From an uncultured Oscillospiraceae bacterium (GTDB lineage Bacteria; Bacillota; Clostridia; Oscillospirales; Acutalibacteraceae): DNA of 64,000 nucleotides. Shown piece by piece: positions 42,356 to 46,254 of the stretch; positions within the stretch are counted from its first letter, which is position 1; every line of letters begins with the position of its first letter. Position numbers and translations under genes: made by a program. Where the stretch lies: NCBI GenBank assembly GCA_900541975.1, contig UQLR01000014.1, positions 8,413 through 72,412 of the forward strand, given 5' to 3'. Below the pieces are notes generated by a model. That model was not told the origin of the DNA. It did no database searches and worked only from the letters and a program-made list of their open reading frames with translations.

Positions 42356-42426
42356 AAATAGTTCCTTCCCGCCATAAAAAATCGTTTCTATCAGATATTG
42401 TTTATAAAAACTTTCGGAAATATGCA

Positions 42427-42456
42427 AAAACACCGTGCTTGTAAGCACGGTGTTTT
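42427..42456 (-). terminator. Terminator, minus strand
   Basis: AAAACACCGTGC and GCACGGTGTTTT pair perfectly around TTGTAA, followed on the minus strand by T residues. It lies at the 3' end of the 6S-like RNA candidate and DUF1292 transcripts. Confidence 0.88.
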
Positions 42457-42655
42457 ATTATGGATTGTTGCCCGCCGGACCGTATTGGTTGATGATAACC
42501 TGCCTACACAAAAGCAGGTGGGTGCTCTCCCCGCGGGTTCACGCTCCCTTCGTCCGCTTAGCGGGAGGTCTGCAATCCGCCGCGGGAGCAAAGCTCCCAA
42601 AATATCGATTGTAGGGTTATATGAACACAATTCGCGCATCAGGCAGGCGGTGGGT
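42457..42655 (-). ncRNA. Candidate 6S-like structured RNA
   Basis: Between the DUF1292 stop and a strong terminator lies a non-coding GC-richer stretch of about 200 nt. On the minus strand CCTGCCT near the 5' side pairs with AGGCAGG near the 3' side (plus coordinates 42641-42647 and 42499-42505). Inside are GGGAGC/GCTCCC (42584-42598) and CCGC-TAA-GCGG hairpins. Length, rod-like folding and a central open region (ATAACCCTACAATCG) fit 6S RNA, the RNA polymerase regulator. Identification by eye only. Confidence 0.55.
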
Positions 42656-42966
42656 TAAAGTGATTCCTCTTCCGGGTCGTTTTCATCATAAATTTCTTCA
42701 AAGTGGCTTTCAAAAATCTCTGCAAGTTTACTTAAAAGGTCTTCGTCTTCCACCTCTGTTAAAACTTCTTCGCCGTCTTCTTCCACAGCTTCAAATATAT
42801 AGTATTCGCCGTCAGACTCCACTTGCTCTTCCGGTGTTTCAAAAACGGGGTAAAGTGCGTAAAAAACACCGTCATCGTTTTCAATTACGTCAAGGATTTC
42901 AAATGTATGCTCATTGTCTTCCTCGTCAAGCAGGGTTATTAAATCTGCCGCGTATTCATTATCCAT
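42655..42966 (-). CDS. DUF1292 family acidic protein
   Basis: The 103 residues are very acidic and match the DUF1292 (YrzB-like) pattern: ITLLDEEDNEHTFEILDVIE, then YYALYPV-type strand and a C-terminal acidic helix. In many Firmicutes the family lies next to ruvX/yrrK and alaS; here it is alone. I use the ATG at 42966, with AAAGGA 9 bp upstream, instead of the ATG at 42975 that touches the RBS. The function is unknown. Confidence 0.85.
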   Translation of the reverse strand: MDNEYAADLITLLDEEDNEHTFEILDVIENDDGVFYALYPVFETPEEQVESDGEYYIFEAVEEDGEEVLTEVEDEDLLSKLAEIFESHFEEIYDENDPEEESL

Positions 42967-43093
42967 ACTGCTCATTCCTTTCAGATCAGACCAAAAACTC
43001 TATTCCTATTTTACCCTTGTGTACAGATTTAGTCAAGGAAAAGTTTAGCTAAACAAAAAATATAAAAAAAATAGAAAAAGTTTAAAAAAAGTA

Positions 43094-43121
43094 TTGACAA
43101 TATGAAAAAAGATGTTATAAT
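43094..43121 (+). promoter_or_regulatory. Consensus promoter of the 43.1-44.06 kb non-coding unit
   Basis: Perfect TTGACA (43094-43099) and perfect TATAAT (43116-43121) with a 16-bp spacer. No gene with an RBS follows within 900 bp. Confidence 0.88.
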
Positions 43122-43127
43122 AAAGAT

Positions 43128-44056
43128 GAACTTAAGGAGAGGCAGTGAATCAAAAGCTGATTCTAAAGTGAAGCAGCCGCAATGAAAAGCAGTAAGGTTT
43201 TAAGCAGTGTAAGTTGGTTTGGAGAAGAAACGTTAAAAGCTTAAAGCCAAAAGCACAGTAAGGGTTTTGTTTACACTAAAAACTGTCGGCAATATTTGGT
43301 TCCTGTTTTAAGCATGATTATAACGAAGGGAAAAGCGATAGTAAAAGAATAAAATGTACTTGTCTAAGACAGTTTATTTTCGTTGTGCGCTTTATTTTTC
43401 GGACAGTCAGTTGCTGAACCTTAAGGAAATGGAAAAGAAAGGAGCTGAGTCCAATGGGCGAATTGACACCTGGAAGTTCTTACAGCTTCGTTCCTGCGGA
43501 ACGGAGCTCAGATATAAAGCGGGTTTGAGAATATCGCTTTTGTTTTATAGAGAAACAGGCAGATGATAAAACATTTTTAAATATTATGAAAAATAAGAAA
43601 GTAGTTCTTTATCCTCTGTAGCTTTTTACAATACCCAATGGGGAATAGGATATTTAGAATTTCGCTTTATAGAAAGAACTTACAATTGAATAGCGAGCAG
43701 TTGTAGTATCAATGAGGAAATGCATTGAGAAACACAAGTATAATTTTTATTATGGACGCAAGCCTTAAAAGCAAAAACTTCGATTTGTTTGTACGTTCCG
43801 GGGATAAAATTTATAAACAAATTGATAAAGACAGAAGGTCTTTATATAGAGTAAAAACATGAAGGTATTCTGCAAAAACAGGATGCTGAGGGTTGTGGGG
43901 GATAACATCCATAGCCGAATGTAATTTTGCTGAAAGGTGTCCGGGTATTCAGAAGATATTTATCTTTAATTATAGATATAGATGGATTCTAATACAATCA
44001 GCTAAGGATAAAAATTGTATTGTAACCGGCGGCAGTGTTTGCCGCCGGTTACGTTT
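43128..44056 (+). ncRNA. Candidate large structured non-coding RNA, about 0.93 kb
   Basis: A consensus promoter and a strong terminator bracket a region without credible coding. Stems seen: GAATCA/TGATTC (43147-43163), AGTGTAA with TTACACT (43206-43212 and 43271-43277), CTGAG with CTCAG enclosing an 11-bp stem around 43484-43508 with loop TGC, TACAATTG with CAGTTGTA (43681-43705), TCAATG/CATTGA (43709-43728), TAAAGAC/GTCTTTA (43826-43844) and GGATG/CATCC (43881-43910). ORFs here are short, and most ignore RBS rules. Large ornate RNAs such as OLE, ROOL and GOLLD occur in Firmicutes; assignment to one of them, or to a new class, is open. A decayed gene is the alternative. Confidence 0.5.
44022..44056 (+). 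terminator. Terminator of the non-coding unit
   Basis: GTAACCGGCGGC (44022-44033) and GCCGCCGGTTAC (44041-44052) pair perfectly around a 7-nt loop, then GTTTTATA. Confidence 0.85.
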
Positions 44057-44247
44057 TATATCCCAGCATTTATTTTGGGGGATTTTTTGTGATTGTATCT
44101 TTATGGTTGCTCCAATTTGTTATTACTTTCATATTATGTTACATAGGATAGAAGCGAGACTTTTTTATACAGCTTTCTCTTTTTCGGAAAAATTGCGCTT
44201 ACAAGGGCATTTTTTATCAGTATCTTTTCAAAAATAAATCTTTTCAA

Positions 44248-44282
44248 AAATAAAAGGCCAGTGTTACACTGGCCTTTTATTT
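44248..44282. terminator. Bidirectional terminator-like stem
   Basis: The 16-bp perfect arms AAATAAAAGGCCAGTG and complement have a TTA loop, with A-rich and T-rich flanks. It isolates the following esterase gene from upstream transcription. Confidence 0.85.
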
Positions 44283-44412
44283 TATCTTGAATGGATAGGA
44301 GAAAATGCGCTTTTCGTTTACAAAATTGCAAAGTTTTTAATATTATATTCAAAATATAAAATTATATATTGAAAAATATTTATGATAATGCATAGAGTTA
44401 TCTATTTGTTAA

Positions 44413-46254
44413 TTTATTAATGTAACAATTCCGGAACCTGTGCCAGAAGGGACAAGTATTAGTATTGGATCAACTTTAAATAATTGGACGCCATCTGATA
44501 CAGATTGGTTTGCAAAGAAAGTAGATGATACGCATTATCGCCTTACCAAAACTTTGGATGCGTCATATATTGGAACTGCCATTGAATATAAATGGACGCA
44601 GCAAACTGCCGAAACTGCAGACAGAACCCACATGTGGGACTTGGTTGAGGAATACGAAAACCGTACCTTTACTTTATTAGCGGGGGAAAACATAATAAAT
44701 GATACGGTTTATAGCTTTAAACAGGTTAGAGACCCCTCAGTTCAGCCATCATCGCCGGATGATACAGCAGAACTTATATTCAATATTACAATTCCATACG
44801 CTATTCCGGATGATGCAAACATCAGCATGGGATCGTCTTTAAACGATTGGGATCCTACCGATGCTGATTGGTTTGCAGAGAAAGTGGATGATACACATTA
44901 CCGCCTTACCAAAATTTTAGATGCATCATACATAGGACTTATTGCAGAATACAAATGGACGCTCCAAATTAATGGACAAGCACAAATGTGGGGGCAAGCT
45001 GAAGTAGACGCGGAGGGTAACAACGTTGCAAATCGAAGAGTTACCGTGTATCCTGGAGAGAATGTTATCAATGATACAATTATAGGATTTCAGCAAGACA
45101 GCGGTCTAACCACTGTAACAGGGGGTACGCTTGAAGTTGTAAGAATGGTAATGCCGCAGTATGAGGATCAGCGCGAAAGAAATATCCGTATATGGCTGCC
45201 GAAAGGTTACGATCCTGCAGATACGTCGAAAAGATATCCTGTTCTTTACATGCACGATGGACAAAATATTTTTGACCAATATACATCATCTTCCGGAGAA
45301 TGGCAGGTAGACGAATCTATTGCGGATATGATTGATGCGGGTTATGAAGGTGTTATTGTTGTAGGTGTTGATCACGGCGCAATGGAAAGACGAAACGAAT
45401 TATGTCCGGCAGGCTATGGAGTTGCATCAATCGGTAATGTACCCACCGGGGAACAATATGCAGAATTTATTGTACATACATTAAAACCTTATATTGATAA
45501 ACATTACAATACATTGCCTGATCGGGGGAATACAGGTATTGGCGGAAGCTCTATGGGTGGACTGGAGTCTTTTTATATGGCGACCACTTATCCTGATATA
45601 TTTGGATATGCACTTTGTTTATCACCTGCCTTGGCATTTTTTACAGATGCAGAGCTGGAAAAAGTTTTTGATACAATTGACTATAGCGATCCTTTACAAT
45701 TGCCAAAAATGTATCTTTCCTGTGGAGGAAGCGACAGTACGGAAACATGGTTCCTGCCAGCGGTGATTTTTACAAACGAAGCGCTGTTAAAGCGAGGTTA
45801 TCCAGCGGATAAACTCTATACGTTTATTGATGAATCGCTTGCGCATGTCGAGGCTGACTGGGCCAAAATTTTTCCAGATGCTTTTAAATGGGCAGCGGGG
45901 AGCAATCCAATTGATCCTACAGACCCCACAGAGCCGGTAACAGAAGGAACCGAGCCTACGGAACCTGTCACGGAAGCTACAGACCCCACAGAGCCGGTAA
46001 CAGAAGGAACCGAACCTACGGAACCTGTCACGGGAGCTACAGACCCCACAGAGCCAGTAACAGAAGGAACCGAGCCTACGGAATCTGTCACGGAAGCTAT
46101 AGATTCCACAGAGCCGGTAACAGGTGCTGTATCGGCCAACGGAGTGGTTCAGACCGGCGGTAGTACACCTTTTGCAATTCTAGTTTTTATATTTCTTGCT
46201 TCCGGGAGCATTCTGTTTGTATTCAAGAAAAAAGGGCTGTGGTTTAAAAAGTAA
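44413..46254 (+). CDS. Wall/membrane-anchored esterase with two CBM20-like domains, 5' truncated
   Basis: Two tandem CBM20-like starch-binding domains come first (about 44.42-44.74 and 44.77-45.09 kb; SISIGSTLNNWTPSDTDWF and SMGSSLNDWDPTDADWF). A putative esterase domain follows (IRIWLPKGYDP, YPVLYMHDGQN, nucleophile GGSSMGG, His in LAHVEADW), then a Thr/Pro/Glu repeat stalk and VVQTGG plus a TM helix and KKKGLWFKK, a sortase-like anchor. The frame starts after a stop at 44410 and enters the first CBM at once: no signal peptide, no RBS. The first possible start is GTG at 44440. The gene has probably lost its 5' end and may be a pseudogene, though the rest is intact. Confidence 0.75.
   Translation, partial: FINVTIPEPVPEGTSISIGSTLNNWTPSDTDWFAKKVDDTHYRLTKTLDASYIGTAIEYKWTQQTAETADRTHMWDLVEEYENRTFTLLAGENIINDTVYSFKQVRDPSVQPSSPDDTAELIFNITIPYAIPDDANISMGSSLNDWDPTDADWFAEKVDDTHYRLTKILDASYIGLIAEYKWTLQINGQAQMWGQAEVDAEGNNVANRRVTVYPGENVINDTIIGFQQDSGLTTVTGGTLEVVRMVMPQYEDQRERNIRIWLPKGYDPADTSKRYPVLYMHDGQNIFDQYTSSSGEWQVDESIADMIDAGYEGVIVVGVDHGAMERRNELCPAGYGVASIGNVPTGEQYAEFIVHTLKPYIDKHYNTLPDRGNTGIGGSSMGGLESFYMATTYPDIFGYALCLSPALAFFTDAELEKVFDTIDYSDPLQLPKMYLSCGGSDSTETWFLPAVIFTNEALLKRGYPADKLYTFIDESLAHVEADWAKIFPDAFKWAAGSNPIDPTDPTEPVTEGTEPTEPVTEATDPTEPVTEGTEPTEPVTGATDPTEPVTEGTEPTESVTEAIDSTEPVTGAVSANGVVQTGGSTPFAILVFIFLASGSILFVFKKKGLWFKK
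45911..46128 (+). repeat. 60-bp tandem repeats in the esterase stalk
   Basis: About 3.5 copies of a 60-bp unit encode DPTEPVTEGTEPTEPVTEAT. Copies start with GACCCCACAGAGCC at about 45922, 45982 and 46042, spaced exactly 60 bp. The last copy is diverged. Repeat number probably varies between strains. Confidence 0.92.

Follow-up and report, generated by a model that had tools for sequence, protein, structure and literature searches.

A probable new family of structured RNAs with a conserved Shine-Dalgarno-like element beside the 6S RNA gene in Clostridia

The locus and its RNA unit

The window analysed here, a stretch of 64,000 nucleotides from an uncultured Oscillospiraceae bacterium, contains a unit of about 0.93 kb (43094-44056) that is bounded by a promoter and an intrinsic terminator (Table 1). 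An earlier note on this DNA had described the promoter as a perfect consensus and the terminator as strong, and both descriptions are borne out, the 12/12 promoter match being unique within 42400-44500 with both strands checked. The unit is flanked by the divergent gene of a DUF1292 protein, and beyond this by the gene for 6S RNA, an RNA that sequesters RNA polymerase. Five frames of at least 40 aa start inside the unit, namely those of 70, 45 and 114 aa listed in Table 1 and two of 46 and 47 aa on the minus strand, and the longest one contained entirely within it is that of 70 aa. Three of the five were scanned against Pfam (the 70-aa frame, the 114-aa frame and a 45-aa piece of the 46-aa frame), and none of these three matched a family.

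The RNA from 43128 to 44060 is predicted to fold with -259.2 kcal/mol, corresponding to a z-score of -7.7 against 20 shuffles. With the terminator excluded and 60 shuffles, the z-score is -5.7 for the whole unit, -5.4 for the core (43434-44010) and only -2.5 for the 5' domain (43128-43430); hence, structure exceeds chance and the terminator alone is not responsible for it. A part of the 5' domain (43162-43419) had no blastn match among 13 relatives.

Downstream of the unit, a near-perfect inverted repeat (AAAATAAAAGGCCAGTGTTACACTGGCCTTTTATTTT, 44247-44283) forms a hairpin resembling a bidirectional terminator between the RNA and an esterase gene (44440-46254, PF00756). The esterase has two similar N-terminal repeats. 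By eye, the repeat seems to run on ahead of the GTG start as far as an in-frame stop, and a signal peptide is not evident, so that the gene may be 5'-truncated.

Table 1. Features of the RNA unit and its upstream neighbours (window coordinates)
Feature	Position	Strand	Remarks
6S RNA gene	42465..42652	-	RF00013, 56.4 bits
DUF1292 protein gene	42655..42975	-	Pfam PF06949; divergent from the RNA
Extended consensus promoter	43094..43121	+	TTGACA-16-TATAAT, TG before -10; 12/12 match
5' domain, ~300 nt	43128..43430	+	closing stem CUUAAGG/CCUUAAG; lineage-specific among the relatives compared
70-aa frame	43354-43566		
Conserved element GAAAGGAGCUGAGUCCAAUGGGC	43437..43459	+	Shine-Dalgarno, GAGUCC spacer, start codon
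24-codon sORF MGELTPGSSYSFVPAERSSDIKRV	43454..43528	+	stop TGA; constrained family-wide in length and in acidic codons 3-7, not in sequence
Hairpin P1, inside the sORF	43482..43508	+	contains the 11-bp stem 43484-43508; alignment A4
Long-range helix P2, 5' strand	43512..43535	+	contains the sORF stop; helix 4 of A7
Hairpin enclosed by P2	43570..43606	+	helices 5-6 of A7; helix 5: 5/8 pairs changed on both sides
Long-range helix P2, 3' strand	43649..43672	+	helix 4 of A7
Hairpin	43715..43744	+	helix 8 of A7: 12 pairs, two of them changed on both sides; 91% of cells paired
45-aa frame	43725-43862		
3' multibranch domain	43769..43933	+	closed by 43769-43777/43925-43933; helices 10-15 of A7
Hairpins of the 3' domain	43825-43845, 43863-43887, 43891-43916	+	the last followed by CCGAAUGUAAUUUU
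114-aa frame	starts 43893		extends beyond the terminator
Intrinsic terminator	44021..44053	+	stem of 15 pairs (9 G-C), then TTTTAT; helix 16 of A7

Relatives and distribution

Relatives were first sought via the nearby gpsA protein, which yielded 80 loci, 37 of them with DUF1292. In three of these 37 (L002, L041 and L058), a promoter followed by sequence sharing GAGUCCAAUGGGC with the window occupies the same place, and two TauE-like genes are retained as well. The element was absent by pattern search from the remaining 34, of which 16 were inspected: 11 have a short, different RNA-like unit, two a variant of it and three neither. Such a short promoter-to-terminator unit, with CTTCCTTTCTATGTGCTTGATTACTCCATAAAATTACC or a sequence near it, lies beside DUF1292 at L010:9080-9250, where all Rfam matches are below cut-off, and likewise in L004, L005, L006, L011 (Ruminococcus bromii), L014, L015, L018, L019, L045 and L060. 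Its hosts are R. bromii and other Ruminococcus-like genomes, L019 differs by one base, and its CTTCCTTTC resembles the anti-Shine-Dalgarno end of 16S rRNA.

In wider searches, eight genomes among 198 relatives of L041 had the 15-letter motif, and a looser motif hit 14 places in 13 of 394 genomes of the order, L164 being apparently a chance match. R1, a model of the element's sequence, was applied to 250 genomes of one family, 60 of which matched at E<=0.02 (about five expected to be false if the E-values hold), and to 291 genomes at the level of the class, where five matched at E<=0.002. Model R2, comprising the element and a hairpin, matched 15 of 148 relatives at E<=0.001, and among the nine matches below 1e-15 five had supplied sequences to the model and four were new. 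L245 was not accepted as a family member, since its E-value of 0.00168 over 291 genomes is near chance and the motif match may be chance as well; at this locus, an M-box riboswitch (RF00380, 1667-1838, minus) is followed by a uORF that starts MESDNDGPFEGRC with the same RBS and precedes an mgtE-like gene (named by eye). At L161, L162 and L165, acidic ORFs of 24-35 codons begin at the element and precede what by eye resemble lipoprotein genes, two such places being found in one genome.

The DUF1292 gene adjoins the element in 21 of 30 fetched R1 loci, with the RNA mostly divergent from it, and 6S RNA was found beyond DUF1292 in all ten relatives known to have both element and DUF1292 among 31 loci scanned with Rfam. 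Judged by this recurring neighbourhood, the RNA gene is conserved in position within one part of the Clostridia. Window included, a promoter with at most one mismatch precedes the element in 27 of 35 loci (the best within 450 nt being picked), and a terminator-like hairpin lies somewhere downstream in 30 of 35 within the sequence covered. In counts across loci, the relatives are not independent events. Where both ends were found, RNA length ranges from 193 nt (L146) to 1,132 nt (L058); the RNA of L208 measures at least 1,362 nt, reaching the end of the locus with no terminator found. In the transcript set, from which L218 was excluded, some ends (L157, L158, L197, L202, L216, L224) were chosen by eye or placed at a fixed length, and the paralogue L170b was cut at fixed length. 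The element lies 17-221 nt from the transcription start in 32 of 34 relatives (17 nt in L208 and L209) as compared with 317 nt in the window, the exceptions being L218, with 346 nt and a poor promoter, and L222, for which there is no such distance. The gene downstream of the RNA is the esterase in the window, a sugar transferase in L002 and L217 and an ORF without Pfam match in L234; since it varies, the RNA is not the leader of one fixed gene. Two element-bearing paralogues stand 1.4 kb apart in L170 (genome G047), one of about 250 nt and the other of similar build. They are small versions of the family, of which the same genome also has a 784-nt member (L154).

Searches for known RNA families

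At gathering score, the sole Rfam match in the whole window is 6S RNA, on the strand opposite to the unit, and no family lies over the unit itself. Between 42980 and 44300, a search at E up to 10 returned 34 matches, all of them sub-threshold and none of them to OLE, ROOL or GOLLD, many sitting at the downstream hairpin near 44250. As Rfam contains models for OLE, ROOL and GOLLD, the absence of a match implies that the unit is none of these. In the relatives, scans of 15 and 16 loci detected 6S RNA, one T-box and one M-box, none of them over the RNA that carries the element. Readings of GUGAGUCC as a hammerhead, a group I or II intron, a T-loop or a k-turn were considered and dropped; Rfam gave no match.

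In blastn searches, 23 phage records matched, none of them over more than 8% of the query and the best with an E-value of 5e-5; the matches of the 20 listed fall mostly on the A-rich promoter stretch. Plasmids yielded a single 28-base match with an E-value of 0.08. The 15-letter motif occurs 63 times in viral contigs; these matches were treated as chance, as only one of them has a promoter-like site (at most two mismatches) together with a purine-rich lead, and that one is without a terminator. Searches of the open-access literature brought up no description of the RNA family.

The earlier note had left the choice between OLE, ROOL or GOLLD and a new class. The three known families drop out for want of an Rfam match, and the second option stands: the RNA is very probably a member of a new structured RNA family. 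By kind, it belongs among the large structured bacterial RNAs, whose general characteristics, an own promoter and terminator and a fold with compensatory changes, it displays; what is new are its putative ribosome-engaging parts.

The conserved element and the 16S rRNA tail

The best conserved motif of the family, GAAAGGnGGUGAGUCC[A/G]AUGGGC, is complementary to the entire 3' tail of 16S rRNA with one base bulged. GAGUCCAAUGGGC is identical in all four syntenic loci (the window, L002, L041 and L058), which were found without using the motif. The first copies of 30 score-selected loci all have G1, A2, C5, C6 and AUGG (30 of 30); between GA and UCC, 28 of them have G, and U precedes CC in 29. 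A profile of 78 copies has G 63, U 9, A 5 and C 1 at the middle base, so that later copies vary more. As GA and CC were prescribed by the search pattern behind this profile, their invariance cannot be read from it. Copies with fewer than five purines in the eight bases before the core were not counted, and the first copy of L225 (GAGCCC) was missed by the pattern. In relatives, one to five copies occur per transcript, some of them without a start codon. As the window has one full copy, the description of the element as repeated rests on the relatives.

Of 15 genomes searched for the 16S rRNA 3' end GGCUGGAUCACCUCCUUUCU, two yielded it, and the six copies are all alike in the searched part. According to RNAduplex, GAAAGG..GGUGA and UCCA pair with the 16S tail and the middle base is bulged, and the mean duplex energy is -15.7 kcal/mol as against -11.6 kcal/mol with random spacers, the 78 copies amounting to about one observation rather than 78. 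The spacer thus appears to add to pairing with the 16S tail. Structures from Staphylococcus aureus (PMC13009471) show that pairing with 16S rRNA can physically continue past CCUCC into this same stretch when one base is flipped. On the other hand, the middle base (G in 28 of 30) seems more constant than a free bulge would need, which argues against the bulge. UCC could alternatively pair with the Shine-Dalgarno sequence of the RNA itself, as modelled in helix 1 of A7, and self-pairing between two copies of the element (GGGUGAGUCC, with tandem G-A) is possible as well.

Short reading frames behind the element

The 24-codon, RBS-backed frame and the 11-bp hairpin pointed out in the earlier note are both present. 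The same note had set this frame aside and regarded the unit as a non-coding RNA with no protein, a view that is at best incomplete: the frame carries the best conserved motif, and across the relatives such short frames begin acidic and further minimal ones occur. The window has a single such sORF. The first ORF comprises 16-37 codons in 27 of 34 RNAs and 2-9 codons in the other seven. In the 33 ORFs of at least eight codons, aspartate or glutamate occupies 55 of 165 positions at codons 3-7 (33%) as compared with 17.1 +/- 3.8 (10%) after nucleotide shuffling; the other two frames have 1 and 8 of 165, and lysine or arginine in frame amounts to 5. All four D/E codons are in use at these starts. 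Among 23 representatives, which were picked by eye and of whose ORFs 21 entered the length test, the corresponding figures are 32 of 105 as against 9.9 +/- 2.9. The spread (0.001) and the maximum (0.005) of ORF length are unusual, the scarcity of ORFs of 8-14 codons (0.11) is not.

A further peculiarity are minimal frames of the type start-X-stop, which follow 13 of 53 copies with a start codon (AUG or GUG) where 2.5 are expected (p 7.6e-7); their stops are TAA in nine, TAG in two and TGA in two cases. Among the representatives, the count is 9 of 35 (p 2.5e-5). This pattern was noticed first and tested afterwards, and stops also exceed 2.5 in other frames, reaching 9 of 53 in frame 2 at codon 4 and 7 in frame 1 at codon 1.

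Of 33 copies, preselected for ORFs of at least eight codons, 30 run without a stop through 14 codons of frame 0, as against 16 and 13 in the other frames. Non-synonymous codon changes exceed synonymous ones in 13 of 13 pairs compared, a count not normalised for the expectation under drift. Taken together, the D/E excess, the length test and the mostly non-synonymous changes suggest that an acidic start and a rough length are kept and the peptide is not; a conserved peptide as the product is disfavoured by the codon changes. Judged by these patterns, the sORF is probably translated.

Secondary structure and covariation

The fold was derived from alignment A7, which consists of five full cores (the window, L209, L230, L233 and L234). 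Rows of A3 and A7 were chosen by eye, and a run of N in its core kept L231 out of A5 and A7. RNAalifold gave a consensus fold that has 124 pairs and an energy of -90.2 kcal/mol; compensatory changes on both sides occur in 39 of these pairs, whereas 100 column-shuffled refolds reached -30.6 +/- 4.7 kcal/mol and 17.7 +/- 4.6 such pairs with a maximum of 30. When letters were dealt anew on A7, 17.3 pairs changed on both sides as opposed to 40 (0 of 500 reaching this number), and when partners were slid, 9 to 13 did. The covariation among homologues that the earlier note had called for is thus found, as assessed by RNAalifold rather than R-scape, on five sequences and with a structure taken from the same alignment.

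Two helices are of particular relevance for the sORF. For P1, alignment A4 (16 sequences, 10 pairs), which was fitted to the model, has a covariation score matched by 0 of 500 shuffles; its seven pairs with changes on both sides were reached by 70 of 500, and 66.7% of cells are paired. Helix P2 comprises 20 pairs in A7, nine with changes on both sides, and its 5' strand includes the sORF stop codon in all five rows. In the 3' domain, 7 of 20 pairs changed on both sides in A6 (nine sequences), the hairpin 43891-43916 being weak when taken alone (covariation score reached by 48 and pairing by 121 of 500 shuffles).

A covarying fold of the RNA family is hence well supported by sequence comparison, and the earlier description of a large, elaborately folded RNA gene can be upheld, with z-scores from -5.4 to -7.7, homologues and compensatory changes. 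The main alternative named at the time, a decayed protein gene, has found no support. A long promoter-to-terminator unit without a protein would fit it, but three frames lack a Pfam match, base changes are compensatory, the same arrangement recurs in many genomes, and no intact homologous ORF was seen among the relatives read; we regard it as practically dismissed.

Comparison with known systems

As a large, elaborately folded bacterial RNA gene, the unit is akin to OLE, ROOL and GOLLD. PMC12286853 describes homo-oligomeric complexes of these RNAs in cryo-EM and mentions ribosomes pulled down with GOLLD and a possible link of OLE to RpsU. The present RNA differs from them by the lack of an Rfam match, its position beside DUF1292 and 6S RNA, its highly variable length, the acidic sORF and the Shine-Dalgarno repeats. 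In leaders of the MgtL type, ribosomes dissociate on acidic residues (PMC11282234), and a short, early-acidic ORF overlaps RNA structure there as it does here, so that dissociation could decide the fold. An early acidic short ORF is found here in 33 of 33 ORFs of at least eight codons, which have D/E at positions 2-8. In contrast to such leaders, the transcript has no regulated gene, ends at its own terminator, is followed by an inconstant downstream gene and has a far larger fold.

The element itself is reminiscent of STAB-SD, a Shine-Dalgarno-like sequence complementary to the 16S 3' end (PMC4113751; here by RNAduplex), and some of its copies are likewise start-less. However, its complementarity is longer, the UGAGUCC spacer is conserved, most copies have a start codon, the first copies open constrained frames, and it lies within a structured RNA, whereas STAB-SD is located in the mRNA leader of Bacillus cry3A. 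Extended SD-aSD sites of S. aureus also pair past CCUCC, with a flipped base, and reach the same part of 16S rRNA (PMC13009471); here, the element is near-fixed in one RNA family and often repeated. A CsrB-like sponge has many copies of a protein-binding motif in one RNA; the present RNA has one to five copies of its element per transcript, and one in the window. 6S RNA is a neighbouring stand-alone RNA gene as well, but its model RF00013 does not match the element RNA, and position is the only link. Single features thus link the RNA to MgtL leaders, STAB-SD and extended SD sites, yet as a whole it is none of these.

Proposed mechanism and rival readings

In our judgement, the best explanation, though one that may well prove wrong, is a stand-alone, ribosome-engaging structured RNA whose fold would be gated by abortive translation. 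Pairing along the full 16S 3' tail (GGAUCACCUCCUUUC), with one base bulged, would let the element recruit 30S subunits with unusual strength. Translation would be meant to be short: ribosomes may pause on acidic nascent chains or fall off, as they do in the MgtL leader, and drop-off of peptidyl-tRNA would be favoured by the start-X-stop frames, as it is in phage minigenes. Because the sORF crosses P1 and ends in the 5' strand of P2, a ribosome completing it would hold P1/P2 open, and the P1/P2 fold would form when the ribosome aborts or is absent; that abortion gates the fold is inferred from this overlap and the MgtL precedent, and as a mechanism it is a tentative and somewhat doubtful suggestion. 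The RNA would then read out the state of the ribosome (such as Mg2+ or rescue factors), and its output may be a trans action of the folded form or titration of initiating ribosomes. Start-less copies fit 30S binding and not abortive translation. An extended version, which we consider unlikely, would make the RNA a translation-side counterpart of its 6S neighbour: near-perfect complementarity to the 16S tail would lure initiating ribosomes into abortive mini-ORFs, and drop-off would sense the ribosome or Mg2+ state and switch the RNA's own large fold. To our knowledge, there is no example of a ribosome-titrating, ribosome-sensing RNA of this kind.

Several other readings account for parts of the data. 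Ribosome binding might merely protect the RNA, with SD-like elements holding 30S subunits as roadblocks for RNase J1, in the way of STAB-SD in cry3A, and a structured body of unrelated function. The GAAAGG at the beginning of the element and the existence of start-less copies agree with this, as does the fact that STAB-SD interacts with the 3' end of 16S rRNA but does not direct translation (PMC4113751); it is nevertheless an unlikely reading, as it leaves the acidic N-termini, the start-X-stop frames and the conserved spacer unexplained. The open frame 0 (30 of 33 copies) and the acidic N-terminus could also point to a dual-function messenger with a small acidic peptide as its product and the rest as a long structured UTR. 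This has a small chance of being right, given that non-synonymous changes prevail in all 13 pairs (not drift-normalised), that the first ORF has just 2-9 codons in 7 of 34 RNAs and that compensatory changes mark the fold in close relatives.

Alternatively, GUGAGUCC may bind an RNA-binding protein or sRNA that the multi-copy RNA titrates in the manner of CsrB and CsrA, for which one to five copies per transcript, some start-less, and the single copies that elsewhere precede lipoprotein-like genes can be cited. Yet 21 of 31 relaxed-pattern matches in 12 genomes fall in this RNA or its paralogue, and the other 10 compare with 8 for a reversed-pattern control, so that no mRNA regulon is seen; with a single copy in the window and with acidic ORFs and stop codons left unexplained, the chance of such a sponge is slim. 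Single elements directly before protein genes in L161, L162 and L165 would suit a very long 5' leader, an attenuator of the downstream gene, which is very improbable in view of a downstream gene that varies between esterase, sugar transferase and an ORF without Pfam match and of a common neighbour, DUF1292, that lies upstream.

Significance

Large structured RNAs are rarely met in bacteria, and most of them lack an explanation. The present family offers handles on such an RNA: a candidate ribosome-binding element, a short frame with selected properties, minimal ORFs and a helix that a finishing ribosome would disrupt. If the proposed gating of the fold is true, the family would represent a stand-alone RNA under the control of abortive translation.
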